Positions 35,979 to 53,457 of a stretch of 64,000 nucleotides of DNA are shown here, piece by piece; positions within the stretch are counted from its first letter, which is position 1; each line of letters begins with the position of its first letter. Under the pieces are notes generated by a model. That model saw nothing but the letters and a program-made list of their open reading frames with translations, was not told where the DNA came from and ran no database searches. Source of the stretch: Flavobacteriales bacterium (GTDB taxonomy: Bacteria; Bacteroidota; Bacteroidia; Flavobacteriales_G; Salibacteraceae); contig JABMOM010000038.1 in assembly GCA_013204105.1 (NCBI GenBank), forward strand, positions 1-64,000, written 5' to 3'. Both the position numbers and the translations under genes were made by a program.

Positions 35979-37758
35979 ACTCTTGCAGCCAGAGTTCGGT
36001 CAGCACCAACTTCCAAGTCTTCTTGCCGTATTGGGCTGGGTACTGGAGTACTACCTTATCGAGATACTCAGCGTTGAATATACCCCGCTGCTTCAGCTGT
36101 TCGATTGACTGTTTCGTTAGATCACTGAGTTTATTGTCGATCCATGCATTCAACGGAGCGCCAACACCTCTTTTGGCTTCAGTGAGCGCAGGCTGCACCA
36201 CCCATGGAGCAGCGGCCTGTTTCAAGACAATTTTTCGCTTGTGTCCGCGCACTTTATGCCTTGACGGAATGCTCAATGCGGCGTCAATCACATCGTTATC
36301 CAGAAAAGGGTAGAGTGGCATTACCCCCAAGTGATTGGAGAAATTCTCAAAGCGGTAGATGTGATGGTTTGGACAGTTGCTGAACATGTAGTGCATTAGG
36401 CCAGAGGTAGCATCAGCGAAGGGTTCTTGACTCGAGTTGTACAAACGTTTCTGAACATCGATTGAACGATAATTGGCGTCTGTGAACAGTGCCCGGAGTT
36501 CTTCATCCAAATAGCCTGCAAAAGATCGGGCGTAATATTCATCAATGGTGCGCGCTCCTGCAATTCGCTTGAACTTGTCAATACCCTTGTGCAAGTTCGG
36601 AGGCAGCAGTTTTGCCACGGGATTCAACAAGCGAAGCCACTGCCAATATTCTAAGTGTTTGAAATAGTGAAACCCACCATAAAGTTCATCAGCACTGAGT
36701 CCATTGATGACCTGATCGTACTTCAAATCACGCGCAATAGATGCGATGGAGAAATAAGCACCCAAGGATATTCCCGGTTGTTCGTACAGCCTTACCAAAG
36801 TCTTCAGCTCTGAGGTAAAATCTTCGTACTCGAATGCTCTTATGTGATGGGTGATGCCGTGCTTTTTGGCTGTCAGGGAGGCTACATCATCTTCGTTCAT
36901 AGCATCAAATGCGGCTCCTTTGACTTTGAAGGTGAAGGCTTCCACAGATGGGTCGTGATGGTGCGCTAGAGCAGTCAAGTAGGCCGAGTCGACACCACCA
37001 CTCAGCGTAGAGCCGATGCTAGCGCCGTTACCAACCCTTCTTTTAGTGGCTGTATTCAGCGTTTCATGGGTGAGTGCAACAGCATCATCAAAGCGCATGT
37101 TCTCATCGATGTTTCGCGAAGGAATTTCCCAATACTTATCCGTCGAAAGTCGACCATCATGGAGGCTGAGATATGCCCCGCGTTCGATGACGTGGACATG
37201 TTTGAAACAGGTCAGCGGTTGGGTAGGCGCTGGATAGGCGACATTCATCCAAAGACCTTCCAGATCGAGTTCCTTTTGCGTAAAGAGCGATGATTTTGCC
37301 ACACCTCGTAATCCCGAGCTTAGAAGGGTGGCTTTTTCTGCGTGATGGTAGAATACCGTTTTGATTCCTCCGCGATCTCGAAACAGATGTAAAGTGCCAT
37401 CGTGCTTGTTGAATTTGAACAGGGTAAACCCACCGTTCAATCGCAAGACGTCTCGGTGATCCAATGTATTCGCCTCAGGAAGAGAGCGGCTCAGGATGGT
37501 GGATTGATTGGATGTTTCGTCATCGAACAACCTACCATAGACGATCAACATCCAACGGTCATCCTCAACGATGGTAGCTTGTATCCGGTTTGTGATAAAG
37601 CCCAGTATGCCTTCAGCCCCGCGAGTAGAGCGGAGTTCGATCGTTTGAATCGTGGAGGGCTGATCTCCCTCCAATGCGGAGAGCATTTCCTTCAGACGAT
37701 CCTCATATTGAGATGCTGGAGCGGGTTGGTCGTATATTATTCCTGAGAATCCGATCAT
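35968..37758 (-). CDS. Asparagine-synthetase-like ATP-dependent ligase lacking the glutaminase cysteine
   Basis: 596 residues in the AsnB two-domain arrangement. The N-terminal Ntn/glutaminase-like domain begins MIGFSG where functional enzymes begin MCG, so Cys2 is Ile; the NGE motif is also degraded (VYGRLFDD), while RDRGGIKTVFY is kept. The C-terminal synthetase domain has an intact ATP loop SGGVDS (253-258), INGLSADELYGGF, and PLYPFLDNDV. It can probably adenylate a carboxylate but cannot release ammonia from glutamine, so it likely uses another amine, as beta-lactam synthetases do. It is the last gene of a three-gene operon with a PLP decarboxylase (12-base gap) and a PLP enzyme, which may supply that amine. 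Confidence 0.85.
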   Translation of the reverse strand: MIGFSGIIYDQPAPASQYEDRLKEMLSALEGDQPSTIQTIELRSTRGAEGILGFITNRIQATIVEDDRWMLIVYGRLFDDETSNQSTILSRSLPEANTLDHRDVLRLNGGFTLFKFNKHDGTLHLFRDRGGIKTVFYHHAEKATLLSSGLRGVAKSSLFTQKELDLEGLWMNVAYPAPTQPLTCFKHVHVIERGAYLSLHDGRLSTDKYWEIPSRNIDENMRFDDAVALTHETLNTATKRRVGNGASIGSTLSGGVDSAYLTALAHHHDPSVEAFTFKVKGAAFDAMNEDDVASLTAKKHGITHHIRAFEYEDFTSELKTLVRLYEQPGISLGAYFSIASIARDLKYDQVINGLSADELYGGFHYFKHLEYWQWLRLLNPVAKLLPPNLHKGIDKFKRIAGARTIDEYYARSFAGYLDEELRALFTDANYRSIDVQKRLYNSSQEPFADATSGLMHYMFSNCPNHHIYRFENFSNHLGVMPLYPFLDNDVIDAALSIPSRHKVRGHKRKIVLKQAAAPWVVQPALTEAKRGVGAPLNAWIDNKLSDLTKQSIEQLKQRGIFNAEYLDKVVLQYPAQYGKKTWKLVLTELWLQEFID

Positions 37759-37770
37759 GGATGTTTCATG

Positions 37771-39003
37771 TCAGCTCCAAAAGTTCAAAATATCCTCAAA
37801 CGAATCACGGTCCCTGAGAATAGCCAGTTCACTGTCTTCACCAATGATCTTGGGAAATGCTCGACTGCAATGCCTCGACCAAAGCGCAAAGCTGTTGGCT
37901 CCCGTATCTTGAATGATCAGCCATTGTCCGGGCTTTGCCTTGGGCAACTGAATGTTCTTTGCGAGGTAATCCCCACCAAAGCACAAAGGCCCGCCTACAT
38001 CTGTGCTCATGAGGTCAGCGTTCTCAGAAGGCTGTAGCAACATATCATGATGCCAAACCCCCGGGTTGTAGGCCTCTCGGAGAAAAAGATCAGCTCCAAC
38101 ATGGACGATCAATACCTGATGCTGCGACTCGGTGGATTTCACATCATGTACTTTGGTAGCCGTCCAAGCCGCATTCGCGTGGTAGTAGCGGCCAAACTCA
38201 GTAACGAGTTCGAAGGAACCATCAAAGAGCTCGGGACAAGCTTTACGCAATGCATCCGCATAGGAGGCTATGTCGAAATCATCCCCCGCTTGGTACTCCG
38301 CTGGGAATCCGCCCCCAATATCAATGGTTCGAATGGTGTCGGGGGCAATGGCGTTGATCTCAAGTGCCAAGTCAACTACCTTTCGAATTGCGCCTACCAT
38401 TTTGATAAAGTCCGCTGTTTGTGAGCTGGTGTGTACATGCAGGCCGCTTACCCTTCCGGAGGAGGAGAGCAGCGTTTCAATGATCTGTGCTCGATTTACA
38501 ATCGACTCTCCGAATTTTGATCGTGCTCCTGCAACGCTCATGGAAGCGTGTGCTCCCGTATCTGCATGTGGGTTGATTCTCAATAAAATGCGCGCCTGCT
38601 GATTCAACTCCAATAATGCGCCCAGTTCTCTAAGGCTATCAGCATTGATCAACAACCCGTCGACCTCATTGGAAGCAATCATTTCTTGACGCGTCTTCGC
38701 AGGACTGTCCCAAGCGATCAGCGGTGCGCCGGCGCGCTGTGCGAGCAATACTTCCTCAAAGGATGCACACTCCAGGCCACACCCTTTGCCCGCGATGTAG
38801 GTCAGCACCTTTGAGAGTGGGTTGCTTTTCACCGCCACCGTATGATGTGCAGAAGCGCCAAAAGCAGAAGCTACCTGTCTGATGCGGGTTTCAAGAATTG
38901 AAAAATCGTAATAAATAAAGGCAGTATCGATTTCGTCGAGCAAGCTTGAAGCGCTGACTTTCTCGAATTGTAGGTTTATCCTATGTGCGTCAACGCGACT
39001 CAC
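37771..39003 (-). CDS. PLP-dependent decarboxylase of the Orn/DAP/Arg group 2 family
   Basis: 410 residues, fold III (alanine-racemase-like barrel plus beta domain). PLP lysine K59 in TVAVKSNP; other hallmarks are LECASFEEV, LRINPHA, LHVHTSSQ, the phosphate loop DIGGGFPAEY (about 228-237), EFGRYYHANAA, and the catalytic cysteine C341 in GGPLCFGGDYLA. It should decarboxylate an amino acid; the family includes diaminopimelate and ornithine decarboxylases and a type associated with exosortase A exopolysaccharide loci. Not the housekeeping LysA by context. Its start overlaps the upstream PLP-enzyme stop by 4 bases (ATGA). Confidence 0.88.
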   Translation of the reverse strand: MSRVDAHRINLQFEKVSASSLLDEIDTAFIYYDFSILETRIRQVASAFGASAHHTVAVKSNPLSKVLTYIAGKGCGLECASFEEVLLAQRAGAPLIAWDSPAKTRQEMIASNEVDGLLINADSLRELGALLELNQQARILLRINPHADTGAHASMSVAGARSKFGESIVNRAQIIETLLSSSGRVSGLHVHTSSQTADFIKMVGAIRKVVDLALEINAIAPDTIRTIDIGGGFPAEYQAGDDFDIASYADALRKACPELFDGSFELVTEFGRYYHANAAWTATKVHDVKSTESQHQVLIVHVGADLFLREAYNPGVWHHDMLLQPSENADLMSTDVGGPLCFGGDYLAKNIQLPKAKPGQWLIIQDTGANSFALWSRHCSRAFPKIIGEDSELAILRDRDSFEDILNFWS

Positions 39004-40394
39004 TCCGAGTCGTTCAGGATAATACGTAGGGTATCGAGTAGTTGGGTATCGTCTCTGAGGTCTAATTCTCGATCAATTAGCTTTCGCACATTAAACGAGC
39101 CCAGGGCCAATCGTAAGAATGATCCTGCGGCGTAGGCAACCGGTTGACCAATCGTGATCAATTCATACTTGGGCATCCATTTATGGCCTTCTAAGCAAAT
39201 ACGCTTGTAAAGATTTTTTAATTGGTCATGGCTCAAGTATGCATCGTTCTTTTTGACCCTGAACGAGATGATGGACTTGTTGGTCTTGTCTTGATCACTC
39301 ATCAATTCAAACACCTCTGCCTGCTCTTTCATGTATGCTTGGATATGATTGTTCCATCGAGTAACCACGCGAATCACTTCGCTTTCCTTGTATTTGGACA
39401 AGGCTTCGAATTCGAAGATGGCTGCTTCCCATCTCAAAAGAAGACCATCGTTTCCTCGCCCTTGAAAGAAGGGTCGAAAGATGGAATTACCAGGAAAGTC
39501 AAATGATGAAAACACGCGATCAAACCCAATGGAAATTTCTGCTTTACAGGTAGAGGCCTGTATGCGATCGTTGAGCTTCTGAGGGACGATCAAGGCGCCG
39601 CAAAAGGGAGGCGATTGATAGAATTTAGACCCCGTGATCAGCAAGCTGCAGTTCAGGGATAAAAGGTTTTGAATCAATTTTCGCGAGACTCGAAGCTGGC
39701 AAATGTCTACTACCCATCGAACGTCTAGGTCTTGGCATTCTTCGATGATGGAGACGTTATCCTCGATACCAGACTTGCTGCCAATCACTAGATTGACGAT
39801 GACCGTGTGGCTTTCCTCGTGTTCTTTGATGCAATCGATGATCTTCTTGCGATGATCCAGAATCACGCCGTTGGAATTCCGTGCTGGGAAGGGAATGTAA
39901 TCAATGTTTATGCTCGGGTTGAGTGGCTCTGTCAATTCCACACTCTCAATTTGCGTCTTCTCAGAGAAGAAGTTGCCCTTATATGCCATCACCGATCCTG
40001 ACCCAAGCTCCTCGGGACAGGTAACAATGTTGAGGATGGGCTTAGTCGGAGAAATTGTTGCTGAAAAGAGTAGTGGAAAATAGCACAGGTCGCTGCCTGA
40101 AGGCGCTAGGTACACTTCAAAAGGTTCATTGCCTTCTTGCAACGCTGCCTTGATGCGATGCCGAAGGTGCTCGTACTTCATCGAATAATCCGGATCATTC
40201 GAGAGGTATTCGTACAGTGCGTGGGTAGGAATCTTTGCTTCTTCTGTGATGAAAGAACATGTGCATGACCCTCGGTTGAAAACACCTTTGGACTTGGTTG
40301 GATTTACGTAGTATTTGTTCAGACCTTTTTCGTCTAGATCCAAGCGTTCATCACCGCCGGCAACGAGCAGATCTTCAAAAGTGGGTTTAGCCAT
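39000..40394 (-). CDS. Atypical fold-I PLP enzyme (class V aminotransferase-like)
   Basis: 464 residues from ATG 40394; 40415 is another ATG but lies only a few bases from a -7-like word (GATATTTG, 40419-40426). Recognisable fold-I elements: APSGSDLCYF in the cofactor phosphate region, VVNLVIGSKSGIEDN, the pyridine-binding Asp in VVDICQLR (D230), and the probable Schiff-base lysine in TGSKFYQSPPFCGALIVP (K257), equivalent to the class V HK motif. It is far from named families I know. It could be an aminotransferase, a lyase or a desulfurase-like enzyme. First gene of the minus-strand operon with the decarboxylase and the cysteine-less ligase; it is divergent from the second sulfotransferase (142 bases). 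Confidence 0.72.
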   Translation of the reverse strand: MAKPTFEDLLVAGGDERLDLDEKGLNKYYVNPTKSKGVFNRGSCTCSFITEEAKIPTHALYEYLSNDPDYSMKYEHLRHRIKAALQEGNEPFEVYLAPSGSDLCYFPLLFSATISPTKPILNIVTCPEELGSGSVMAYKGNFFSEKTQIESVELTEPLNPSINIDYIPFPARNSNGVILDHRKKIIDCIKEHEESHTVIVNLVIGSKSGIEDNVSIIEECQDLDVRWVVDICQLRVSRKLIQNLLSLNCSLLITGSKFYQSPPFCGALIVPQKLNDRIQASTCKAEISIGFDRVFSSFDFPGNSIFRPFFQGRGNDGLLLRWEAAIFEFEALSKYKESEVIRVVTRWNNHIQAYMKEQAEVFELMSDQDKTNKSIISFRVKKNDAYLSHDQLKNLYKRICLEGHKWMPKYELITIGQPVAYAAGSFLRLALGSFNVRKLIDRELDLRDDTQLLDTLRIILNDSE

Positions 40395-40536
40395 GTGAGG
40401 AAATCCTTGGTTCATGAACAAATATCAAATAATCTGTCGATGAACTGTTGTTATTATAGCGCTTCAAGACTAGCAATTGCGGGAACAAAGGTGGTGACTT
40501 TTTTCTGGTGAAGCCAAAAGCTCGAAATAATCATCT

Positions 40537-41559
40537 TTGAAGCTGTCGCCATTATTTTCAATCGATTTGAACCTCATTAAAAAACTCCGCCGAAAACTTC
40601 GTCCTCCTGGTATCTACGCTAGGGTAGTGGACCTGAGCGTGTCTCCTTTCTTGGATGCTCGGGAGCGAAAATTTGTCAAGGGGCTCGACGTGTCAGAGCC
40701 TGCCAGGCATGCGCCTGTGTTCATCGTAGGTGCACCTCGCTCTGGGTCTACGATGTTTTACCAAATATTGGCCAATGAGTTGGACGTTCTCTACATCAGC
40801 AATTTTGTCCATGTCTTTTCAAGTTGGTTGAATACAGCATTTGGCTTAGAAAATAAATGGCTCCGGAAGAAAAAGCGATATCCACTGACTTCGAGCTATG
40901 GCGGCACCTTCTCCGCCGGCTGGGGAGCACCCAGTGAATGCGGGGTCTTTTGGTACAAGCACATGCCCCAAGAGAAACATTTTCTCACCGGTGAAGACCT
41001 AAGCCTGGATGCTCAAATGTTCTTCAGGCGTTCTGTTCGCATTCCAATGAGTACTTATGGTAAGCCATTCCTCTTTAAGAATATGAATGCTGGTCAGCGC
41101 ATCGATTATTTGAAACGAGTTTTTCCTGAAGCGAAGTTCATCTTTATCAAACGAGATGTCCTGGCAATGGCACAGTCGATCCTAAAGGCTCGAAAAGATA
41201 TCTATGGTAGCGCCCATACATGGTGGAGTATCAAGCCAAAGGAATTTCAGGAATTGGCAGAAAAAGAACCGTTCGCACAGATCATTGGGCAAATCTTTTA
41301 CATTGAAAAGCAAATTCTTAAGGATTTTTCGTCTCTCGAGGAAAAGGACCGTATGGTGCTTTCATATGAAGCGCTGTGCGCTGATCCAAATGCCATGATT
41401 TCAAAGGTTTCTGATTTTATAAATGAGGATGTGAAAGATTCCAAGTACGACGTCGATTATGGTTTGGAGGCCAGTTCAGGCAGAAAGTGCAGCGAAGAAG
41501 ACTATGCTCGTCTCCAAGAGATCATCCACACCTATAATTGGACGACGTATGATTTGTAG
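40537..41559 (+). CDS. Sulfotransferase family protein (second of three)
   Basis: 340 residues if translation begins at the TTG at 40537. There is an in-frame stop at 40528 and no ATG near, so TTG 40537 or TTG 40567 must be used; the true start is uncertain. PAPS-binding loop VGAPRSGSTMFYQIL (about residue 64), GKPFLFKNMNAGQRIDYL, and FIKRDVLAMAQS for the 3'-phosphate site. Sulfotransfer to a surface glycan is the likely role. It starts a plus-strand operon: the next gene overlaps it by 11 bases. Confidence 0.82.
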   Translation: MKLSPLFSIDLNLIKKLRRKLRPPGIYARVVDLSVSPFLDARERKFVKGLDVSEPARHAPVFIVGAPRSGSTMFYQILANELDVLYISNFVHVFSSWLNTAFGLENKWLRKKKRYPLTSSYGGTFSAGWGAPSECGVFWYKHMPQEKHFLTGEDLSLDAQMFFRRSVRIPMSTYGKPFLFKNMNAGQRIDYLKRVFPEAKFIFIKRDVLAMAQSILKARKDIYGSAHTWWSIKPKEFQELAEKEPFAQIIGQIFYIEKQILKDFSSLEEKDRMVLSYEALCADPNAMISKVSDFINEDVKDSKYDVDYGLEASSGRKCSEEDYARLQEIIHTYNWTTYDL

Positions 41560-43010: not shown

Positions 43011-43973
43011 ATGAGTGTCAGTATCGTTTCAGATAAGTCAGCCTACCTACAATTCATCTCTGGGCAAGCTAATCCCCCCATTTTCTCTCAGCCATGGTAC
43101 CTAAACATCGTATGCGGGGCTGATAGATGGAACTGTGCACTGGTTCAGAAGAAGGAAGAAATCATTGGCTCCATGGCTTATTTCCAAACCAAGGAATTTG
43201 GGCAATCGGCCATTGTGAACACCAAACTGCAGCCGTATACCTGTGTGTTAGTGGACATTCCCGATAACATGAAAGGGGTGAGTGCGAAGTCGAGAGAGAA
43301 TGAGGTGTTAACTGCAATCGCAGATGGGTTACCAAAGGTTGATCGGGTCAACATCAAACTGTACCACAACGTCACGAATTGGCTGCCATTTCGTTGGAAT
43401 GGTTATCATGAAACCACATTCTATACTTACGTAATTCCGAAAGGAACGAGCGCTGAGGAGGCGCGCATGCAGTTTCGTTCATCCGTGAGATCGACGATCA
43501 AAAAAGCGAGAAAGACCTTGACTGCAACCCAAGATGTTGGCATTGATCAAATGATTGAATTTGGTCAAAAGACATTCGCTGCCAAGGGAAAGAAGTACCC
43601 CAATGATCCTGAGATCATTCGACAGCTGTTTGCCGCCTGCAGCGAGCGGAATTGTGGGATGATACGTGGGGCGGTAGATGAGACGGGCAAGCTGCACAGC
43701 GTGATCTTCTTGGTCGAAGATGCAGGAAGCGTGTATTACCTTTTGAGTGGATCCGATCCAGAACTTCGAAATTCCGGCGCAGTGAGTTTACTCCTTGAAG
43801 ATGCGATCGTTTATGCAATGGAGGCGGGCAAGGAATTTAACTTCGAGGGGAGTATGGATCGCGGCATCGAATCCTTCTTTCGAAGTTTTGGAGGCGTGCA
43901 GGTTCCTTTAATGAAAATCTCAAAGAACCGCACTTGGCTGATGATCCTCTACGACCTTTTCAAACGAAGATGA
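43011..43973 (+). CDS. FemAB-like GNAT-fold acyl/aminoacyl transferase
   Basis: 320 residues. N-terminal IFSQPWYLNIVCG and the double-GNAT pattern (FRSSVRSTIKKARK, GAVDETGKLHSVIFLVEDAGSVYYLLSGSDPELRNSGAVSLLLEDAI in successive blocks, then FNFEGSMDRGIESFFRSFGG) are those of FemAB/BioF2-like acetyltransferases common in exopolysaccharide loci. In such loci these proteins are thought to transfer acyl or aminoacyl groups to glycan residues. Translationally coupled to the deacetylase gene that follows (ATGA overlap). Confidence 0.85.
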   Translation: MSVSIVSDKSAYLQFISGQANPPIFSQPWYLNIVCGADRWNCALVQKKEEIIGSMAYFQTKEFGQSAIVNTKLQPYTCVLVDIPDNMKGVSAKSRENEVLTAIADGLPKVDRVNIKLYHNVTNWLPFRWNGYHETTFYTYVIPKGTSAEEARMQFRSSVRSTIKKARKTLTATQDVGIDQMIEFGQKTFAAKGKKYPNDPEIIRQLFAACSERNCGMIRGAVDETGKLHSVIFLVEDAGSVYYLLSGSDPELRNSGAVSLLLEDAIVYAMEAGKEFNFEGSMDRGIESFFRSFGGVQVPLMKISKNRTWLMILYDLFKRR

Positions 43974-45238
43974 TAGCTGCATCCATATTTGATATCCAGT
44001 TGACGGGTCAATGCGGCCCGATGTTTCGTCATACGCTTGATCAGTTGTTCAAGCACGTGCAAAGCACGCAACGATCTAATGTTGCTATTGGAATCGAAGG
44101 AAGTGAAGCGGAGATTCAAGTTTCGAATCGATTTTGTGAACGGATACAGCAAGGACCTCCTTTCGTTAACATCCTAGACCAACACCCTGAAGTCAGGAGG
44201 AAAGATGGAAGTATCGATCACCTTTCTACACTGATGTATATGGTGAATTACCTGCAAGAGTATGGAAGAGTGGAGCAGGATGATATTGGCAGGTTTCCTT
44301 TTTACGCGTCCTACCAAAAACGATTTGACGTTGTGTCAAAGGCTCTAGTCCTCTACCACTTCAAGAAATTTCTAGCTCAGTACGAATTGGGAAAATGGAT
44401 CGATCAGCCGAGTCGATTGTTTGTGTCCCACGATAACGACGGACTTTTTAGAAGCTTCAAACAAGACGGCAAATTTGCATTGAGTAAGGGAAGGTTGGAT
44501 TGGCTGTTGCGGATTGTTTTCTCGGAAGCCATCCGGAAACCTCGTTGGTTCAATATGGATCGCATCATGGACATCAACGATGAGTATGATTTGAAGTCGA
44601 CCTTTTTTTGGCTGGTGGAGCAAGGGGATGTGGAACTTGAGAGTAGAAGGCTGCGGAATTCGGACTATGCCATTGACGACCCGAGAATTCAGCGTCAAAT
44701 GAAAAAGATTGAAGCTCGGGGATTTGAACAAGGGCTGCACAAATCCATCAGTTCCTATGGATTCGATGAGGAGATTGCCCTACTCCCTTTCGCGTGCCAG
44801 GCGAACAGGAATCATTTTTTACGCCTTCAAATCCCTGAACATTTTCAAGAAATGGAGGACGCGGGATTGAAGTTGGATTTTTCGCTCGGTTTTGCGGAAG
44901 AATTCGGACTCCGAAACAACTACGCTCTTCCTTACCAACCCTACGATCTGAACCATGGTCAAGCAAGCAGTGTTCTCTATGTTCCGCTGATGATCATGGA
45001 TACGACTAACTGGACCTACAAGCAGCATTCGATAGAAGAATTTAGGATCAAGGCCTTGTCCCTGATCGAAGAACACGAGCAGAATGCGGTGATTTCGATT
45101 TTATGGCATAACAAGTATTTTACAGACATGAAATTTGAGGGATACTTGCAGGTTTATCGTTCCATCTTGGATTTATGTCGTGAACGCGGGATTGCGGGTG
45201 TTTCGCAACAGGAGTTGCTCAATCAATATACACGCTGA
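43970..45238 (+). CDS. Polysaccharide deacetylase-family (NodB-like) protein
   Basis: 422 residues from ATG 43970 (4-base overlap with the FemAB-like gene). The N-terminal ~130 residues are an accessory domain of Bacteroidota proteins of this type. The deacetylase barrel starts with LFVSHDNDGLF, which supplies an Asp pair in the metal/catalytic position, then KSTFFWLV, a region SLGFAEEFGLRNNYALPYQPYD, and the closing strand VISILWHNKYF, where His may bind metal. It probably removes acetyl groups from an amino sugar in the polymer, outside the cytoplasmic membrane or in the cytoplasm; no signal peptide is evident. Confidence 0.75.
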   Translation: MIAASIFDIQLTGQCGPMFRHTLDQLFKHVQSTQRSNVAIGIEGSEAEIQVSNRFCERIQQGPPFVNILDQHPEVRRKDGSIDHLSTLMYMVNYLQEYGRVEQDDIGRFPFYASYQKRFDVVSKALVLYHFKKFLAQYELGKWIDQPSRLFVSHDNDGLFRSFKQDGKFALSKGRLDWLLRIVFSEAIRKPRWFNMDRIMDINDEYDLKSTFFWLVEQGDVELESRRLRNSDYAIDDPRIQRQMKKIEARGFEQGLHKSISSYGFDEEIALLPFACQANRNHFLRLQIPEHFQEMEDAGLKLDFSLGFAEEFGLRNNYALPYQPYDLNHGQASSVLYVPLMIMDTTNWTYKQHSIEEFRIKALSLIEEHEQNAVISILWHNKYFTDMKFEGYLQVYRSILDLCRERGIAGVSQQELLNQYTR

Positions 45239-45240
45239 GT

Positions 45241-46734
45241 ATGGGGGTGATTCGAAGACAAAGTGCCTTCTCAAGCATTGCCATGTACATTGGCATTGCT
45301 TTAGGATTTGTGCTTTCACTGTTCGTCTATCCGCGTTATTTGGTGGCAGAAGAGATTGGCCTTGTACGGGTGTTGGTTGATATGGCGAAGCTTATTTCGC
45401 CATTCTTGCTCCTAGGTATTCCCGGTACGTTTGTACGCTACTATCCCTATTTCTCGAAGGATGAGAATGCTGCGGCAGCATTTCGTTACCTATCCCTCTT
45501 GGTAACGGGTGTCGGAACAATTTTCGCCTTACTCCTTTTCTACTTTCTTGAGCCGATATTGGTGGCCTCCTTTGCCGAGAAGTCCCCGCTCCTCAGCGAA
45601 TTTTTTGTTTGGTTGCCCATTCTGATCTTTCTCGTGGGTGGTATTTCCTTGTTACGGGCTTATTATCGATCTGATTTCAACATCACTATTCCCAATGTCT
45701 ATGAGGTAATCGTTCTCAAAGTGTTCTTTATAGGAGCCGTCTTGGTGTATTTCTATATGGACCTTTCTGTAGACTGGCTGGTCTACATGTACATTTTCTC
45801 ACATGCGCTGATATTTCTGGGGTTACTGATCACATACGCCCGAAACGGCCGATTGCGATTGAACAAAAATCTGAGCTTGATTGATCCGAAACTCCGCAAG
45901 GAGATGATTACTTATGGCTTGTTTGTCATTGCCAATATGGTCAGTGGATCCATGATAGTAAATATCGACTCTTGGATGCTTGCTTCGCTTTCAGGGTTGT
46001 CTGCAACGGGCATCTATGCTATCGCTCTTTCGATCGGAATGGTCATAGAATTACCCAGACGCTCCATCACGCAGATCGCCGTTCCAGTGATTGCGAATGC
46101 TTGGAAGAACAATAACATGGATAACATCCGCGATATTTACCACAAAACCAGCTTGAACCAGCTGATTGCAGGTGGCGTTATCTTTATTTTGGTTTGGACA
46201 AACGTTGATGACCTTTTCAGACTAATCCCCAATGGAGAGTTGTACAGTGCTGGTAAATGGGTCGTCTTCTTTATTGGAATATCAAAGCTCTTTTCGATCG
46301 CTACAGGATGTAACATTGAGATTCTACAAGTGTCGGAGCACTATCGCTATAGCTTGTGGACGCGAATTATCTTGATTGCGACGGCGATCGTCACGAACCT
46401 TTATTTTATTCCAAGGTATGGCATCACAGGAGCCGCAATAGCTACTGCGATCTCTTTCTTATCCAATAACATCATCCTGTACCTTATCGTTTGGATCAAA
46501 CTTGGACTGCAACCTTTCAAACGGACTAACCTCTATGCGCTTCTTTGGTTAGGGATCATGTACCTAATTGCCGCATACCTGCCTTACCCCTTTGAACATC
46601 CCCTGGTACTGATGGGTCTCCGTACCGTTGTTGTGGGTGCGTTGTTCCTGCTGATTGTTATGCGATTTGACTTTTCTGAGGACCTCAAGCAATTTATACT
46701 ACTAGCACTGAAAAAGGCTGGACTCAGGAAGTAG
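45241..46734 (+). CDS. Wzx-like oligosaccharide flippase (MATE/MOP superfamily)
   Basis: 497 residues, about 12-14 transmembrane helices, beginning RRQSAFSSIAMYIGIALGFVLSLFVYPRYLV and containing GIPGTFVRYYP and YGLFVIANMVSG, IPRYGITGAAIATAIS. These are typical of polysaccharide-export flippases, which move lipid-linked glycan units from the cytoplasmic to the outer face of the inner membrane. It starts 2 bases after the deacetylase gene and overlaps the convergent third sulfotransferase by 11 bases. Its presence shows the locus handles an exported glycan or glycolipid. Confidence 0.9.
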   Translation: MGVIRRQSAFSSIAMYIGIALGFVLSLFVYPRYLVAEEIGLVRVLVDMAKLISPFLLLGIPGTFVRYYPYFSKDENAAAAFRYLSLLVTGVGTIFALLLFYFLEPILVASFAEKSPLLSEFFVWLPILIFLVGGISLLRAYYRSDFNITIPNVYEVIVLKVFFIGAVLVYFYMDLSVDWLVYMYIFSHALIFLGLLITYARNGRLRLNKNLSLIDPKLRKEMITYGLFVIANMVSGSMIVNIDSWMLASLSGLSATGIYAIALSIGMVIELPRRSITQIAVPVIANAWKNNNMDNIRDIYHKTSLNQLIAGGVIFILVWTNVDDLFRLIPNGELYSAGKWVVFFIGISKLFSIATGCNIEILQVSEHYRYSLWTRIILIATAIVTNLYFIPRYGITGAAIATAISFLSNNIILYLIVWIKLGLQPFKRTNLYALLWLGIMYLIAAYLPYPFEHPLVLMGLRTVVVGALFLLIVMRFDFSEDLKQFILLALKKAGLRK

Positions 46735-47716
46735 GGTAGTCATACTCTGCCATGTAGCTGCGCAAAGCCGTATTGAGACGGGAGATCTCTTCGCCATTGA
46801 AGCTGTCTTTATAGCGTCCGATGTGATGTGCGCTTAGGTCGATCTCCAACATATCTGCTTCCAATGTGATTCCTACAAAGGCGCACACCTTGGTCAAAAC
46901 TCCCTGCGGATCCTGCACTAGATCTTCAAATCGGATTTCCAAATAACGATCAGGATCGATGGAACTGCGTTGCTCCCTCCACGTGTCCATTACGCCAGCA
47001 TACCACGGAAGGAGATGGTCTAAGTGGGTAGGTGCCCAACGTTGCGTCTGGAGGGAACTGATTACGTCTCGGGGGTCTCGCACGATGTGGAGCATCTTCC
47101 CAGACGGCACGAGCGATAGCAGGTCATGGGCCACTAGGAGGTTGTGGGTGTTGTCTTCTTGAAAGATGTGTTTTCCTTGCTCTTTTCGAATCGCATCCGT
47201 ACATGCTTGAATAAATTGGGCAACGACAGGTTGCAAGCTTGAGGCATTCATGGGAGGCGCGAAGTACATCTCATTCTGCTCGACGTTTTCTTTCGAGCCT
47301 GGCCAAACACCACTATAGCTGAATAATCGAATGTCATTGATGAAAGCGTCAATCAAGTTGGCGTAACCTGGAATCCATTTGCTCAGTTCCCATCCCGCAT
47401 AGGGTGGAGGGGTGTAAGCCAGCCCAGTTGGGTCTTTTGTCTTTGCGGTTTCGGTATTGGCGGCCTTGCTTGCATCGACCACGCTCAAGGATCGCAGAAA
47501 GTTTTCTAGGCGTTTGATCTGCTTGTCTGCTCTATAGGGAGACCACAAGGCTGGATAGGAGCGATAAAAATCGATGACCCCGTCAGGGTCGATGATGAAG
47601 CGATATTCAAAGGGAAGGGAGGCAATCGCAGAATGGCGGGACATGATCTTTTTCAAGATGTTCGTGCCCGATCTTCCGGTACCCGTGATGAACAGTGTAT
47701 CGATCTGTTCGCGCAT
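46724..47716 (-). CDS. Sulfotransferase family protein (third of three)
   Basis: 330 residues from the ATG at 47716, which shares a base with the previous stop (TGATG); an upstream TTG at 47728 is less likely. PAPS loop ITGTGRSGTNILKKIM at the very N-terminus and LHIVRDPRDVISSLQTQRW for the 3'-phosphate site; EIRFEDLVQDPQGVL is another family landmark. This one is closer to classic sulfotransferases (RDPRD) than the other two. Last gene of the YfhO-to-sulfotransferase operon. Confidence 0.88.
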   Translation of the reverse strand: MREQIDTLFITGTGRSGTNILKKIMSRHSAIASLPFEYRFIIDPDGVIDFYRSYPALWSPYRADKQIKRLENFLRSLSVVDASKAANTETAKTKDPTGLAYTPPPYAGWELSKWIPGYANLIDAFINDIRLFSYSGVWPGSKENVEQNEMYFAPPMNASSLQPVVAQFIQACTDAIRKEQGKHIFQEDNTHNLLVAHDLLSLVPSGKMLHIVRDPRDVISSLQTQRWAPTHLDHLLPWYAGVMDTWREQRSSIDPDRYLEIRFEDLVQDPQGVLTKVCAFVGITLEADMLEIDLSAHHIGRYKDSFNGEEISRLNTALRSYMAEYDYPTS

Positions 47717-48363
47717 CAGATGATCCAACGGATTACTTCAAAGGCCTCCGCAAATTCTACGTTGGCCTGCAGGCCCCGATAGTTGGCTACACCACGGATC
47801 AATTTGTCCTTCGCATAAAGTCGCTTTGATTGAGACTTGTAACACTCCATGGCGGCTACCTTTTTCGCGACGTCTGATTCGTTGAGTTCGATAAAGCACT
47901 GCGAGGCGAATTGGAAATTGTTCCAAATGAATTCATACCCAAGAAGGGTAGTGTTTTTAAAAGCACGCTTAGCTTCCATGCTCACCGTTCCATGATCCTG
48001 ATGGATGTCGTAGCTCGATGGACAAAATACGAGGTCAGGTTTGTACTCCTTGTTCAAGCGAACCATGCTCTCGAGTATTTCTTGTCGGTCGCGCGGGAAG
48101 TAGCGGACTTTGAAGTCGAGGATGACCAAATCTTCTGATAGAATGCCCAAGGTGCTAGTGGCAGCCTTCACTTCGTGCGACAGCACATCAGACGGAAATC
48201 CTTCTGGAACCGATTCCTCACAGGTGGAAAAAGCCACGTAAATCACTTTTTTTCCAAGTGATAGGAGTTTATGGATGGTACCACCACAGCCGAGTTCGCC
48301 GTCATCGGTATGCGGTGCCAGGACCAAGACGGTATCGAATGCATTAAGTGCTGAAGTCTTCAT
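47716..48363 (-). CDS. PIG-L/LmbE-family N-deacetylase
   Basis: 215 residues. Zinc/catalytic motif APHTDDGELGCGGT (16-29) and YDIHQDHG later in the sequence are the two hallmarks of the family, which removes N-acetyl groups from GlcNAc derivatives and related amino sugars. It overlaps the formyltransferase gene by 20 bases, so the two products likely act in sequence: removal of one acyl group and addition of another on an amino sugar. That pairing is inference. Confidence 0.9.
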   Translation of the reverse strand: MKTSALNAFDTVLVLAPHTDDGELGCGGTIHKLLSLGKKVIYVAFSTCEESVPEGFPSDVLSHEVKAATSTLGILSEDLVILDFKVRYFPRDRQEILESMVRLNKEYKPDLVFCPSSYDIHQDHGTVSMEAKRAFKNTTLLGYEFIWNNFQFASQCFIELNESDVAKKVAAMECYKSQSKRLYAKDKLIRGVANYRGLQANVEFAEAFEVIRWII

Positions 48364-49657
48364 AAGCGGTGTCGAATTCGTTGCAAACTTCTCGAAAACC
48401 CACCTTGCGTAGGTCCGATGTTAAGTTCTCTTGTGACAATATTCGGAAAGTTTCGTCGGCTATCTCTGCTTCCATGCGGAGAGTTACGTAGACGGCTATG
48501 TTGATGGTTCTACTTTCGAGGTCGGCTTGCGCAACGATTTCTGCGGCTTCCTTGGCACTCTCTACAACGATTTGAGGAACCTCCAGAAGTCCATTGTGAT
48601 AGCGGTAGGGTTGGGTATCCATCAAGTTGAGCGAGGATACATACCTGAATTCTTTGCTTGAAACGGCCAGAACATTTTTACGCAACAGGGCCTCCATGAT
48701 CGGGAAGTGCTCTTCTAGATCGACCTGAGGATAAAGCAGAATCCCTTGCTCTGTCCTATCGCCTATACTATTCCTAAGTTCTTTTCTCTGAATTGCATCC
48801 CCTCCTGTCAAGGTAGTCTTGAATCGATATATGTCAGGGATGTTAAGCACTGAGAGGGGAGTGTCGTCGGAAGAAAGCACATCACCTTTGGGAGTGATCA
48901 CGCAAAGGCGTACCCCAGGAGCGTACAAAGCTTGAGGGGGCTGGCGATGCCCTCGAAAAGGCGGAAAGTCCATGGCGCGCACAAAACGTTCCTTTTGTTC
49001 AGGGAGCCAATCCCATTGCAGCTGGCCGCCGAATGGCTCGCCACGCAATTGATACGTAGCATCCGTTGCTGACTGTTCTTCGAGCTTCAAAAGGCCATTG
49101 TCAAAATTGGGCAACGCGCGTTCAAACATGCGTTTGCCGGCAAACATCAATTTAATGTAGAGCGTGTAGGCGTTGTCTTCGGATTCGATCGCCACCTTTT
49201 CCTGATCTGCGATGGGACCATTATCAACGCCGGTTTCCATTTTGTGCAGGGTGATGCCGCAGTAGGGTTCTCCCTTGATGATGGACCACGGTATTGGCCG
49301 CGATCCTCGATTCTTGGGGAGGTAGGCCGTATGGAAGTTGAATATCCCTTGCCTTGGGATGCCGAGGACTTCAGCTTTGAACAATTCACTCCAAAAGCAG
49401 GAGAAAATCACATCTAATTGCAAGGAGCTCAACAGCTCCAGAGATTCCTCGGAATTGACTTTCATTCCGAAGTGAACAGGAATACCATGCGATTGCGCTA
49501 AAGTTGCGAGAGAGCGGTGGCCAAGGTCTTCATGCCAAATGCCCATGCCTGGCTCGTCATCCCTACTGAAAACACCGAGTACTTCATGCCCTTGTTCCAG
49601 CAAGGTGTCTAATAGGATGCAACTCAGCTCCTTGCTCCCTATGACAACCGTTCTCAT
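48344..49657 (-). CDS. Formyltransferase-domain protein with an additional C-terminal domain
   Basis: 437 residues from ATG 49657, which overlaps the upstream glycosyltransferase stop by 4 bases; the longer frame to 49840 runs back into that gene. The N-terminal domain (1 to about 260) is a 10-formyl-THF formyltransferase: N107 and H109 in FNFHTAYLPKNRG and D145 in GVDNGPIA match the catalytic Asn-His-Asp. The C-terminal ~170 residues are not part of that family; the block GILLYPQVDLEEHFP..ALLRKNVLAVSSKEF looks like the final strand and helix of NodB-type deacetylases, and YRYHNGLLEVP is also reminiscent. Probable role: N-formylation of an amino sugar nucleotide. Confidence 0.82.
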   Translation of the reverse strand: MRTVVIGSKELSCILLDTLLEQGHEVLGVFSRDDEPGMGIWHEDLGHRSLATLAQSHGIPVHFGMKVNSEESLELLSSLQLDVIFSCFWSELFKAEVLGIPRQGIFNFHTAYLPKNRGSRPIPWSIIKGEPYCGITLHKMETGVDNGPIADQEKVAIESEDNAYTLYIKLMFAGKRMFERALPNFDNGLLKLEEQSATDATYQLRGEPFGGQLQWDWLPEQKERFVRAMDFPPFRGHRQPPQALYAPGVRLCVITPKGDVLSSDDTPLSVLNIPDIYRFKTTLTGGDAIQRKELRNSIGDRTEQGILLYPQVDLEEHFPIMEALLRKNVLAVSSKEFRYVSSLNLMDTQPYRYHNGLLEVPQIVVESAKEAAEIVAQADLESRTINIAVYVTLRMEAEIADETFRILSQENLTSDLRKVGFREVCNEFDTAYEDFST

Positions 49658-50952
49658 TGAGCAATGCGGTTGAGGAGTGATGCAAGCACCGATGTGCTTC
49701 CCTTTCGGCTGAATTGTTTGAACTTGTCGTTCCCTGTGACCATGGGCGAGGGGTGGGTCTGGTATTCTTGAAAGTAACGGACCAACCAGTCTTTTATGCG
49801 ATCTGTATCGGCGTAGTCGATCATGGGTTCTTTGCCACAATCCATGAGAATGTCGGCAGCATTGCCATCTATAGGGCCGATGCTAAGAATGGGCCTGCGC
49901 GAAGCAAGGTATTCGAAGAGTTTTCCCGTTAGGATGCTCTTGTTGCCGCTGTCTTGAGGAATGGGTAAGAGCAAGGCCTGGGATGCCATCATTCGTTCGA
50001 TTGCCTCCTTATGCGGAACAAACGGTAATAATTCCACCATGCCCATGATTCCCGCCTCTGAAAGACCCTGCCTCACCTCATCAGCGATGTTACCGGTAAT
50101 CCTGAGTTTGAAGTTCGACTTGAAGGCTTCGTTTTCATCTGCGAGTGATGCGATGGCTCGCCAAAGGGCGGTGACGTTTTGAAAGGCCTTGAGGTTTCCG
50201 ACGTATGAGAGTGTAAATTCCTTGTAGGGAGTGGGGTTGAGGTGTAGGATGTCTTCTTCGTCGTAGCCATTTGGAATGAACACAATCTCTTTTGCACGCG
50301 CTTGAAATTCCGCCTTCAAACCAGGAGATGCCACTACCATTGCGCTTGCTGTGCTAGCGACCATGTCTTCCAGGTCTTGATCTCGTTGTCGCGTACTTTC
50401 CGTCCGGTTTAGGAAGGCGTTGTAATAGATATTGGTCCAGGGATCACGAAAATCTGCGATCCATGGAATGCCATTTTCCCGATGCAGTCGCTCACCTACC
50501 AGGTGCGTGCTGTGCGGTGGTCCGGTGGTAATGATGACCGCCGGTTTTTCGACCTTGATAATGCGGAGTGCTTCGGGTAGAGAATAGATGTTCCATCCTA
50601 CCCGTGCATCAGGCACAAAGAGGTTTGCGCGGACATAGTTGGAAAAACGCGCAAAGAAGCCTTGCTTGCCTTTGATGTTTCCCATGCCCACCTCGATGCT
50701 TTTACCTTTTTTACCCCTCAAGGCATTGTAGATCGCGAAGGGTTCGAGTGTGGCGGTCTTGTGCACCATTAAGTCGGGAGGAATGTCCCCAGAAAGGCTT
50801 TCGTCTTGAGAAGGGTAACTTCCATTGCGAACGGTGACGACGATGGGTTCCCAGCCTTCGTCAGGCAGGTATTTGCAAAACTTCAACCAACGCTGTACGC
50901 CGGGCCCGGAACCCGGTGGCCAATAGTACGTCAGTATCAGTGCTTTTTTCAA
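49654..50952 (-). CDS. GT4-family glycosyltransferase
   Basis: 432 residues with the GT-B layout. N-terminal LILTYYWPPGSGPGVQRWLKF, then ITTGPPHSTHLVG, WIADFRDPW, and C-terminal nucleotide-sugar domain FIPNGYDEEDI, LSYVGNL, LTGKLFEYLASRRPIL. The form is familiar from Bacteroidota cell-surface loci. It is the only evident glycosyltransferase of this locus, so the backbone sugars must be assembled by enzymes encoded elsewhere. It begins 6 bases after the YfhO-like gene. Confidence 0.9.
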   Translation of the reverse strand: MKKALILTYYWPPGSGPGVQRWLKFCKYLPDEGWEPIVVTVRNGSYPSQDESLSGDIPPDLMVHKTATLEPFAIYNALRGKKGKSIEVGMGNIKGKQGFFARFSNYVRANLFVPDARVGWNIYSLPEALRIIKVEKPAVIITTGPPHSTHLVGERLHRENGIPWIADFRDPWTNIYYNAFLNRTESTRQRDQDLEDMVASTASAMVVASPGLKAEFQARAKEIVFIPNGYDEEDILHLNPTPYKEFTLSYVGNLKAFQNVTALWRAIASLADENEAFKSNFKLRITGNIADEVRQGLSEAGIMGMVELLPFVPHKEAIERMMASQALLLPIPQDSGNKSILTGKLFEYLASRRPILSIGPIDGNAADILMDCGKEPMIDYADTDRIKDWLVRYFQEYQTHPSPMVTGNDKFKQFSRKGSTSVLASLLNRIAQ

Positions 50953-50958
50953 TGGGGA

Positions 50959-53457
50959 TCAGTCCTCGCGTTGTTTCTTAAGGTGAAAATAGATCAGTCC
51001 GCCGGCAAATAGCAGGAACAACACGGATCCGGCCAATGATACATTCATACCCAGCCTGAAAGAGCTCGGGTTAAAACGCATTTCCACCACATGCTCTCCT
51101 GATGGAATCTTAATAGCACGGAGCACATAGTTGACACGCTCAATTTCTGCTGGCTCACCATCGATGGTTGCTTCCCAGCCATTTCCGTAGTAGACCTCCG
51201 AAAAGACTCCAAGACCATCTTGGTCATTTTTCGAGGTGTACTTCAAGAACTTCGGAGACAAATCCGTCAATTGAATCGATGCGTTTGTTGACTTTCCAAA
51301 ATTGTATCCGTACAGTGAGGCTTCATACTCTGCGCTCACGATGGCTGTTTTATTGGGGTCGAATTGAGCCAATGCGGCCATCTCTTCGTCTGCTGTGCCT
51401 ACCTTTTGGATGTTTTCTACAAACCATGCATTTCCGCAGGCGGAACGATTCAATACTGCACCACCCGGGTTGTTTGCCTGCACGATGAAGTACTTCGTGT
51501 TCAGCATGTTGTAAACAGGCATTTGCTGGGCTACAGATGGGTTCATGATTACTTGATCACCCTGCTGCATCAGGCCACTGTTCAACTTTTGAAGCTGTGC
51601 ATTCAATTCATTTTCAATCAAATCCTGATAGCGCTGCAATTTGGCGGCGTGATGCCCTCCCACATTTTCGTGATGGTAGCAGGTCAGACCATCGGTCCAG
51701 GGACTTCGCGTTACATTAATGACCCGGTAATGCGGATCGGGATCTTGCAAGATGGCTTGATCGGCGAGGGATGGTCGGAATTTCTGATCAAAGTCGCGCT
51801 GGCTTACGAAGTCATCGTTGTTGAGGTAACGCTTACTTACGTGCCACATATCTGCCAAATAAACAAGGCCGATGATCATCACTACGGCTGTTAACTTCAT
51901 CTTGCCTTTATCGTGGTACCAGATTACAAATGCCGTCACCGCCATCACCAATGTACTGATGAACCAGTCTGACAAATACCTTGACTTCCGATCGGCAAGC
52001 AAGGCTTCGTAAATAGCATCGATGCCCCATGGCGAATTCTTTCCTTGGTAGCTGGCATCTTTCGGGCCTACCCAATCGTTGAGCAATCCGTAGAGGAAAA
52101 GCAAAAGCATCAATCCACCAGCAATGTATACGGTGTATTTCAAGGCTTTTTTCAATTCAGTCTTATCCACATCTCCGTTGAGGACGCGATGCAGTCCTAG
52201 TATTCCCATCAGGGGTATGGCCAATCCAGCAATGGCAAGTGCCATGGAAGGCGTACGAAACTTGTTGTACAGCGGAAAATAGTCGAATAGCAATCCGGTT
52301 ACGGCCTCAAAATGCCGTCCCCATGATATGACCAGCGACATGACAATGATGCTCAATAGCCAAGTGCGGGTCGGGCCTTTCAGAAGGAAAATGGAGAGGA
52401 TGAAAAGGAAGATGAAACCTGCTCCGAAATAGACCGTCCCTAGTAAAAATGGCTGATCACCGACGTACATCGGGCCTTGTGCTAGGATGCCTTCCTTCTG
52501 CTGTTTATTGAGCTGAAAGCTTTTGAGAGCTTCTTCCACGTTTCCACCTTCTGGAAGCGGCTCCCCGGTTCCACCGCCCATAAAGGAAGGAACTACCAAG
52601 GTCATGGTTTCTAAGGGGCCATAAGACCAGCGCATGGCATAATCTCGATCCAGACCGCCTTTGTCTTTGTCGTCTTTGCTGCTCAGCTCTGATTTTCCAC
52701 CTCGAATGGTTTCCTGGCTGTGCTCATAGGCATTGTAGAGTTTTGCCGTGTTTGGCAATAAGCCGCCAATTGCTGCCAGCGCCAAGATTCCAACGGCCTT
52801 TGCAAAATCAGGTAAGGTCTTTTCCTTGAACGCTTGGATCAGGTGGACAATGCCCACCACAATGGAAATCAACAAAAAGTAATACAGGATTTGGAAGTGG
52901 TTTCCATTGATCATTAGACCTACAAACACCAAGGTCATTAACGCACCGATCAATCGTTTTCGTCCCAAGGCCAACACAACACCGCCAACGGCCGGAGCCA
53001 TGTATCCGATCGAGACAACCTTGGTTACGTGACCCGCTACCAGCGATACAATGAGGTTCGTGGAAATGCCGTAGGTAAGGGATGCAGCTAGCGCAAGCCA
53101 AGGATTGACGCCCATGGCTACAAGCAGTATGAAGAAGCCGAGCATGGTGACGAACAGGACATTTGCAGTACGAGGGAAGGTTCTGCGCACCACTTTGTCT
53201 AGCAGGAGCGCGACGTTGGTGCTGTACTGCGTTCCGATATGAAACGCGGTCATACCGCTGAATACACGGGTGGTCCAAAGCGGCTCTTCCCCATTAGCAT
53301 CTCGATACTCTCGCATCTCTTTGGTTTGGGCAATGTTCTTTACGATGTCGTCTTGAACGAGTCGTTTTCCCTGCAATACAGGTGAACAATAAAGGATGGA
53401 TGTCAAGAGGATGACAACTACCGAGATGATGTGCGGAGAATACTTTTTCCAGTCCAT
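50959..53457 (-). CDS. YfhO-family polytopic membrane protein
   Basis: 832 residues, about 12-13 transmembrane helices with a large extracytoplasmic C-terminal domain and a last helix near the end (LGMNVSLAGSVLFLLFAGGLIYF). FSGMTAFHIGTQY, YGISTNLIVSLVAGHVTKV, INGNHFQILYYF, PLYNKFRTPSM and YYGNGWEATIDGE are recognisable family blocks. In Firmicutes YfhO takes part in glycosylating lipoteichoic acid; in Bacteroidota the family is widespread and its substrate is unknown. GT-C-like glycosyl transfer to an extracellular acceptor is likely. First gene of the minus-strand operon. Confidence 0.9.
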   Translation of the reverse strand: MDWKKYSPHIISVVVILLTSILYCSPVLQGKRLVQDDIVKNIAQTKEMREYRDANGEEPLWTTRVFSGMTAFHIGTQYSTNVALLLDKVVRRTFPRTANVLFVTMLGFFILLVAMGVNPWLALAASLTYGISTNLIVSLVAGHVTKVVSIGYMAPAVGGVVLALGRKRLIGALMTLVFVGLMINGNHFQILYYFLLISIVVGIVHLIQAFKEKTLPDFAKAVGILALAAIGGLLPNTAKLYNAYEHSQETIRGGKSELSSKDDKDKGGLDRDYAMRWSYGPLETMTLVVPSFMGGGTGEPLPEGGNVEEALKSFQLNKQQKEGILAQGPMYVGDQPFLLGTVYFGAGFIFLFILSIFLLKGPTRTWLLSIIVMSLVISWGRHFEAVTGLLFDYFPLYNKFRTPSMALAIAGLAIPLMGILGLHRVLNGDVDKTELKKALKYTVYIAGGLMLLLFLYGLLNDWVGPKDASYQGKNSPWGIDAIYEALLADRKSRYLSDWFISTLVMAVTAFVIWYHDKGKMKLTAVVMIIGLVYLADMWHVSKRYLNNDDFVSQRDFDQKFRPSLADQAILQDPDPHYRVINVTRSPWTDGLTCYHHENVGGHHAAKLQRYQDLIENELNAQLQKLNSGLMQQGDQVIMNPSVAQQMPVYNMLNTKYFIVQANNPGGAVLNRSACGNAWFVENIQKVGTADEEMAALAQFDPNKTAIVSAEYEASLYGYNFGKSTNASIQLTDLSPKFLKYTSKNDQDGLGVFSEVYYGNGWEATIDGEPAEIERVNYVLRAIKIPSGEHVVEMRFNPSSFRLGMNVSLAGSVLFLLFAGGLIYFHLKKQRED

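Follow-up and report, generated by a model that had tools for sequence, protein, structure and literature searches.

What is the long tail that follows the catalytic core of a formyltransferase encoded next to a PIG-L family deacetylase? The question is raised by a locus within a stretch of 64,000 nt, called the window below, which comprises positions 1 to 64,000 of contig JABMOM010000038.1 from a Flavobacteriales bacterium (assembly GCA_013204105.1; this own genome of the window is labelled G000). An earlier note, made from the letters of the window, had described an open reading frame (ORF) at 48344-49657 as a formyltransferase whose last ~170 residues resemble the end of NodB-like deacetylases but show no full catalytic set. 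By comparing the protein with its orthologues we found that what remains in the tail is probably the second half of a NodB-like deacetylase domain in eroded form, the first half having been lost or become unrecognisable. For the protein as a whole we consider it fairly probable that it is a sugar N-formyltransferase which acts after PIG-L on a surface amino sugar and keeps its tail as a non-catalytic NodB relic. The ORF was confirmed and lies on the minus strand: it encodes 437 aa, starts with the ATG at 49657 and its stop ends at 48344. No ORF of at least 100 aa was found on the plus strand across 48344-49657, where the translated plus frame is interrupted by stops. A chance ORF can be ruled out because all 13 genomes searched within the genus, the own genome included, hold an orthologue.

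Searching 60 genomes we obtained formyltransferase matches in all of them, mostly to other formyltransferases, and 14 orthologues were set apart by an E value of 4e-86 or better (next match 1.4e-36). They comprise the window protein, those of all 12 other genomes drawn from the genus and that of G015, which belongs to another genus of the same family. Eleven orthologues are 418-439 aa long, with tails of 186-206 residues, and the remaining three are longer, with 468 aa in G005, 494 aa in G015 and 545 aa in G010. The extra domain of G010 contains FDCD, HTYHH, RSPLGY and LTLHP, which follow the NodB order as MT1, MT2, MT3 and an MT5-like motif; the roles of these motifs are described in PMC10967932. 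In 300,000 shuffled versions of this domain MT1-MT3 occurred in order 47 times and all four motifs not once, the MT5 pattern L.{1,2}H of this test having been loosened after LTLHP had been seen in G010. The Pfam model PF01522 scored 22.7 bits (E 1e-4) on the G010 domain alone and 21.6 bits on the full-length protein, both short of the cut-off of 23.1, and reached 23.5 bits, above this cut-off, at the same domain in the genome search. Applying hhalign, we observed that the 11 shortest tails align with residues 156-310 of the 312 residues of the G010 domain (98.4% probability, E 5.9e-15). By this profile comparison the tail and the second half of the G010 extra domain are homologous, which bears out the resemblance to the end of a NodB deacetylase. 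The lack of a full catalytic set was likewise confirmed, as the window protein shows no MT1, MT2, MT3 or MT5 pattern beyond residue 230. The MT1, MT2 and MT3 patterns are also absent from the intermediate, longer forms G015 and G005, and not even three motifs of the ordered set were found in any of the 13 orthologues other than G010.

Several observations weigh against a NodB origin. With the stricter MT5 pattern L.H the ordered set failed in G010, and 1 of 200,000 shuffles satisfied that version. In the genome search the tails of G000, G005, G006, G009 and G015 went unmatched by PF01522. Compared by hhalign with NodB-type proteins of the same genomes, the G010 domain reached at most 2.1%, and unrelated controls reached up to 1.3%. 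With the domain this far from those NodB-type proteins, it is the borderline Pfam score and the motifs, one of them (MT5) relaxed, that identify it as NodB, and we regard this identity as supported but marginal. The AlphaFold models, built on five-row alignments (mean pLDDT, the predicted local distance difference test score, of 70.3 for the window protein and 65.2 for G010), are poor in the middle of the G010 domain, with block means of 30-49 over residues 331-470. In the window model residues 261-300 reach 30-40; residues 331-430 were modelled with moderate confidence (65-87). Among the matches listed, the best 50 of each fold list, all were driven by the core (formyltransferases, related hydrolases and others), and neither NodB nor OB (oligonucleotide/oligosaccharide-binding) folds appeared among these rows, core matches filling the lists. 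Database searches with the tail gave little to set beside this: residues 240-437 had no NCBIfam match at E <= 10 and, in Pfam, PBDC1 alone (E 0.14, below cut-off and at chance level), and the best matches among solved structures by sequence, E 0.083 with the tail profile and 0.25 with the G010 domain, were not convincing.

ArnA and Fmt carry an OB-fold domain at the position of the tail. A diverged OB domain, which the earlier note had raised as an alternative, was weighed as well, and some rows of the VIA-align fold comparison, in which the window model was aligned with ArnA or Fmt chains, do extend into the tail. However, the 11 short tails matched the C-terminal parts of 11 Fmt proteins with an hhalign probability of 0.1%, compared to 98.4% for the G010 domain. 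The other three tail sets gave 0.1-0.2% against the same Fmt parts, and a search of the 437-aa protein at E <= 1 yielded no further Pfam match beyond Formyl_trans_N, Formyl_trans_C included. On these profile comparisons we consider an OB-fold origin of the tail very unlikely.

If the tail is an eroded NodB half, it could still be a remnant without any role, decaying and retained since trimming it would disturb the translation coupling with PIG-L. The tails indeed vary, not only in their length in the 11 genomes but also in sequence (35-39% identity in two pairs), and their last residues fall within the 20-nt overlap with the PIG-L gene. To be set against this is the ratio of nonsynonymous to synonymous substitution rates (dN/dS). 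We computed it for six pairs, many values of which were saturated, and the best pair, G000 and G009, gave 0.041 for the core and 0.185 and 0.274 for the two tail parts, that is 0.19-0.27 across 195 codons upstream of the overlap. In the other computable pairs the second tail part showed 0.21-0.46. The pattern QP....NG.L..P is retained in 14 of 14 orthologues, even in G006, where no PIG-L follows the formyltransferase. The tail is thus under purifying selection despite the loss of the motif set in 13 of the 14 orthologues, and a roleless remnant appears improbable.

The core of the protein belongs to the formyltransferases. Residues 1-181 correspond to Formyl_trans_N (PF00551, E 8.6e-20, 71.7 bits against a cut-off of 26.1), and in the sequence search of solved structures residues 1-230 matched the N-domain of ArnA (6pih) with E 3.1e-34 and 29% identity. 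Comparing folds, we found that the core of the window model superimposes on the ArnA N-domain 5j63_C with Z 24.1 (242 aligned residues, root mean square deviation 2.7) and that of the G010 model on ArnA with Z 25.6 (239 aligned, 2.4). The Asn-His-Asp set claimed in the earlier note is present as N107, H109 and D145, retained in 14 of 14 orthologues in the alignment; the core ends near residue 235 and not near ~260 as had been stated there. None of the NCBIfam sugar formyltransferase cut-offs was reached (ArnA 152.5 of 777 bits, PRK06988 148.7 of 316, PRK07579 52 of 238), nor was that of Fmt (TIGR00460, 120.7 bits versus 201.5). The own genome also holds a second formyltransferase ORF of Fmt-like length, a 328-aa open frame at G000:C17:138644-139330. 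With family profiles and the structural match of the core in agreement, the identification as a formyltransferase stands, and by family and active-site residues the window protein is probably a sugar N-formyltransferase of the ArnA/WbkC type.

We next asked how far the combination of core and tail is spread. Within the order, the tail was recovered by profile from 14 of 42 genomes, comprising 13 of 13 in the genus, 1 of 22 in the rest of the family and 0 of 7 in the rest of the order. The 14-row tail profile matched 7 of 295 genomes of the class, five of which are the known carriers G000, G001, G005, G007 and G015. Two further, weak matches are probably due to chance: G218:C41:15462-15647 (E 3.6e-4, a 136-aa open frame) and G104:C4:101214-102485 (E 0.0019, with internal stops). 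Among 395 genomes of the phylum this profile returned 2, the own genome and again the weak G104, and no further carrier. A search with the G010 domain as a single query matched 2 of the 295 genomes of the class and none of the 395 of the phylum, blanks which show little because the known carriers G000, G001 and G007 were missed as well. Plasmids and phages gave no match to the G010 domain at E <= 1, and viral contigs a single, unconfirmed pattern match. The core as query at E <= 1e-25 matched 14 of the 395 phylum genomes, the own genome and 13 others with open frames of 263-342 aa. As these frames are too short for the tail, the 13 formyltransferases lack the extra domain, and the same two-domain order, which the earlier note had proposed to look for in other proteins, did not turn up elsewhere among these 395 genomes at this threshold. 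No formyltransferase-NodB fusion was found in titles and abstract openings among the literature matches listed, subscription journals being mostly outside reach.

A connection between the formyltransferase and its PIG-L neighbour became apparent when we compared gene trees for the 11 genomes in which all genes could be read. The long forms (G010, G015, G005) had been defined by length before the trees were built. They group together in the PIG-L tree (support 99/98) and in the formyltransferase tree (65/82), and this group is rejected by carB (p-AU, the p value of the approximately unbiased test, 8.38e-5; the CarB of G008 entered this tree as a 681-aa piece) and by yfhO (p-AU 1.95e-77). Conversely, a pair of G010 and G004, supported with 100/100 by yfhO and 93/92 by carB, is rejected by the formyltransferase (p 0.00966) and PIG-L (p 0.00255). 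When short or long form was mapped as a label, one change sufficed on the formyltransferase tree (90% of bootstraps, 14 rows and 9 outgroups) and on the PIG-L tree (98% of bootstraps), compared to three changes for carB, three for the GT4-type glycosyltransferase (not forced), three for yfhO and two for the sulfotransferase. Since the history of formyltransferase and PIG-L is rejected by carB and yfhO, the simplest reading is that the two travel between species together, and the trees suggest that they are probably an exchangeable pair. Three points tell against it: the long group is weak in the formyltransferase tree at the value given above (94/92 in the 14-row tree), GT4 is undecided on it (p 0.394), and the G010-G004 pair was picked after the yfhO tree had been seen. 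The short-tailed G006 stands beside the long forms in the 14-row formyltransferase tree (82/79), and from this position its tail may have shortened independently of those of the other short forms.

Put together as a mechanism, PIG-L would strip the N-acetyl group from an amino sugar in a surface-polysaccharide operon, and the formyltransferase would then transfer a formyl group from 10-formyl-tetrahydrofolate onto the freed amine. An ancestral formyltransferase would have been fused to a NodB-like deacetylase domain whose metal and catalytic motifs were later lost, and the remaining half-domain would have been kept as a non-catalytic part, be it for folding, for oligomer or partner contact or for holding the substrate. 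We infer here the order of the two reactions, the amino-sugar substrate, the state of the acceptor and what the relic does. The overlap of the two genes and their shared history point to reactions that follow each other on the same amino sugar, removal of acetyl and then addition of formyl. The deacetylate-then-formylate step proposed in the earlier note is accordingly still plausible, and it is strengthened by the common history of PIG-L and formyltransferase. It is weakened by G006 (assembly 89% complete), which gave no PIG-L match at E <= 1e-25 and whose short-tailed formyltransferase is relocated, away from GT4.

For the ancestral long form, the strongest competing reading is the reverse order. 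In the route to 4-amino-4-deoxy-L-arabinose (Ara4N), ArnA formylates and ArnD deformylates afterwards. By analogy the NodB domain could have been a deformylase, so that the ancestor formylated and then deformylated an amino sugar and in the short forms the formyl group would now stay in place. This order fits the core, whose nearest match is the ArnA formyltransferase, and ArnD is described in PMC10967932 as having a NodB1-like domain and as part of Ara4N biosynthesis. However, the G010 domain had no NCBIfam match at E <= 10 (the presence of an ArnD model in the library was not checked), and we regard a deformylase ancestor as unlikely. A bolder extension can be drawn from the same data, which we put forward as a speculation with some doubt: G010 would be a single-chain N-acyl exchanger, whose NodB domain removes acetyl or formyl and whose formyltransferase adds formyl on the same sugar. 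Long and short pairs would be swapped between species as a cassette, within an operon whose other genes are inherited differently, and so switch the acyl state of the glycan. In the short form PIG-L would have taken over the deacetylase step, with the pseudo-NodB half as its docking or substrate platform.

On the reading of the tail as a non-catalytic NodB relic behind a formyltransferase that follows PIG-L, the orthologues of one genus and a neighbour would form a series, from a fused domain that seems complete through two eroded copies to relics of half a domain. Such a series would allow one to follow what becomes of a dead enzyme domain that is retained as a part. If deacetylase and formyltransferase are indeed coupled, this would help to tell which bacterial surface sugars bear N-formyl instead of N-acetyl, and the exchange of the two genes suggests this acyl state as a feature in which surfaces vary. 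If not, the finding would still correct how an unnamed domain is annotated.

The genes around the formyltransferase (Table 1) recur in the order carB - yfhO - GT4 - formyltransferase - PIG-L - sulfotransferase, with an extra ORF of 259-266 aa between carB and yfhO in G001, G004, G008 and G015. GT4 lies directly upstream of the formyltransferase in 13 of the 14 genomes, window included, where homology was established by BLAST for 11 besides the window and by eye for G002. In the window the stop of GT4 overlaps the formyltransferase start by 4 nt. On the other side, the overlap with the PIG-L gene reported in the earlier note was found again; 13 of the 14 genomes have a PIG-L gene that begins before the formyltransferase stop, that of G012 being cut off by the end of its contig. 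This overlap is 20 nt in nine short forms and 29 nt in one, compared to 4 nt in G010, 8 nt in G015 and 4 nt in G005. The PIG-L protein stayed below the BshB1 cut-off (68.2 bits versus 182.5). A sulfotransferase follows PIG-L in 11 genomes by BLAST, window included, and in G002 by eye; in G006 (L012, L074; G006:C2) a different sulfotransferase-like gene was seen by eye behind the formyltransferase. Some further arrangements were observed. In other genera (G024, G036 and G040) GT4 and a convergent PIG-L are separated by a 367-370-aa ORF that takes the place of the formyltransferase (L109:4942-6054, L111:3601-4704 and L112:6594-7697) and has no BLAST match to window proteins. The L111 copy has no Pfam or NCBIfam match, and a 24% relative was found on an Eleftheria terrae replicon. 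In G014 and G033 a PIG-L relative occurs in another setting.

Table 1. Positions in the window of the formyltransferase gene, its parts and its operon neighbours
Feature	Position	Strand	Evidence
Probable formyltransferase with NodB-derived tail, 437 aa	48344..49657	minus	ORF, profile matches, orthologues
Formyltransferase core, probably ArnA/WbkC type, residues 1-235	48953..49657	minus	PF00551, 6pih, 5j63_C
Asn107-Phe-His109, predicted formyltransferase active site	49331..49339	minus	aligned with ArnA Asn/His
Asp145, predicted formyltransferase active site	49223..49225	minus	aligned with ArnA Asp
Probable eroded NodB-like deacetylase domain without catalytic motifs, residues 240-437	48347..48940	minus	profiles, motifs
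QPYRYHNGLLEVP, best-kept stretch of the putative relic, residues 349-361	48575..48613	minus	QP....NG.L..P in orthologues
20-nt overlap, formyltransferase stop / PIG-L start	48344..48363	not assigned	ORF coordinates
PIG-L family deacetylase, 215 aa	47716..48363	minus	PF02585 E 1.6e-18, 67.9 bits vs cut-off 28.2
Sulfotransferase, next operon gene	46724..47728	minus	PF13469 E 3.4e-26; synteny
GT4-type glycosyltransferase, upstream	49654..50952	minus	PF13439 E 2.4e-6, 28.1 bits vs cut-off 28.5; synteny
YfhO-like membrane protein, conserved flank	50959..53457	minus	PF09586 E 1.7e-11; synteny

Further genes of the window were noted as well. A VimE-like NodB deacetylase (43934-45238) adjoins a FemAB-like acyltransferase (43011-43973), and an asparagine-synthase-like protein is encoded at 35968-37758; the pair at 43011-45238 together with this gene looks like a Vim-type sugar locus. 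Homologues of vimA and vimE are adjacent in some other bacteria according to PMC7468200. We also searched for kinship between the formyltransferase tail and this VimE-like deacetylase and found no match. Three sulfotransferase-family genes lie within 13 kb (34911-35978, 40537-41559 and 46724-47728), which suggests a sulfated surface polymer. A 473-aa protein without Pfam or NCBIfam match at E <= 0.01 (39000-40421) has relatives of 46-93% identity in 6 of the 12 stretches examined around the operon. The window further contains a subtilase protease that combines SprB repeats with a type IX secretion sorting tail (8680-10983), a PorP/SprF protein (19858-20859) and a 443-aa protein that by eye looks like a membrane protein, without Pfam match at E <= 0.01 (27596-28927).

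Compared with known systems, the window protein shares with the N-domain of E. coli ArnA the core, the Asn-His-Asp set and 29% identity, but the sequence match stops near residue 230, and the fusion partner in ArnA is a UDP-glucuronic acid oxidase whereas the window protein would carry a NodB-derived relic instead. WbkC, the perosamine N-formyltransferase of Brucella, is covered nearly whole (TM-score 0.75-0.80 by target length, 233-242 alignment columns); its chains, however, have 244-256 residues and no extra domain of the kind seen here. The two-domain sugar N-formyltransferases QdtF and FdtF resemble the window protein in that a long further domain follows the core (chains of 397-417 residues). 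Their extra domain is of the ankyrin type, in contrast to that of the window protein, which appears homologous to a NodB-like domain. In Porphyromonas gingivalis the putative deacetylase VimE, VimA and WbpS are assigned steps in making the linking sugar of type IX cargo, as described in PMC7468200. The neighbouring VimE-like deacetylase and FemAB-like acyltransferase of the window recall VimE and VimA of this Wbp/Vim pathway, although the VimE-like protein scores 48 bits against a cut-off of 440 (NF053580) and these genes are separate from the formyltransferase. To the NodB-like (CE4) deacetylases the link is G010, in which MT1, MT2, MT3 and an LHP resembling MT5 are retained. NodB proteins that are inactive or pseudoenzymes have been described (PMC10967932); those named there are NodB domains without active residues, whereas the window tail has probably lost the first half of the domain as well and is fused to another enzyme.

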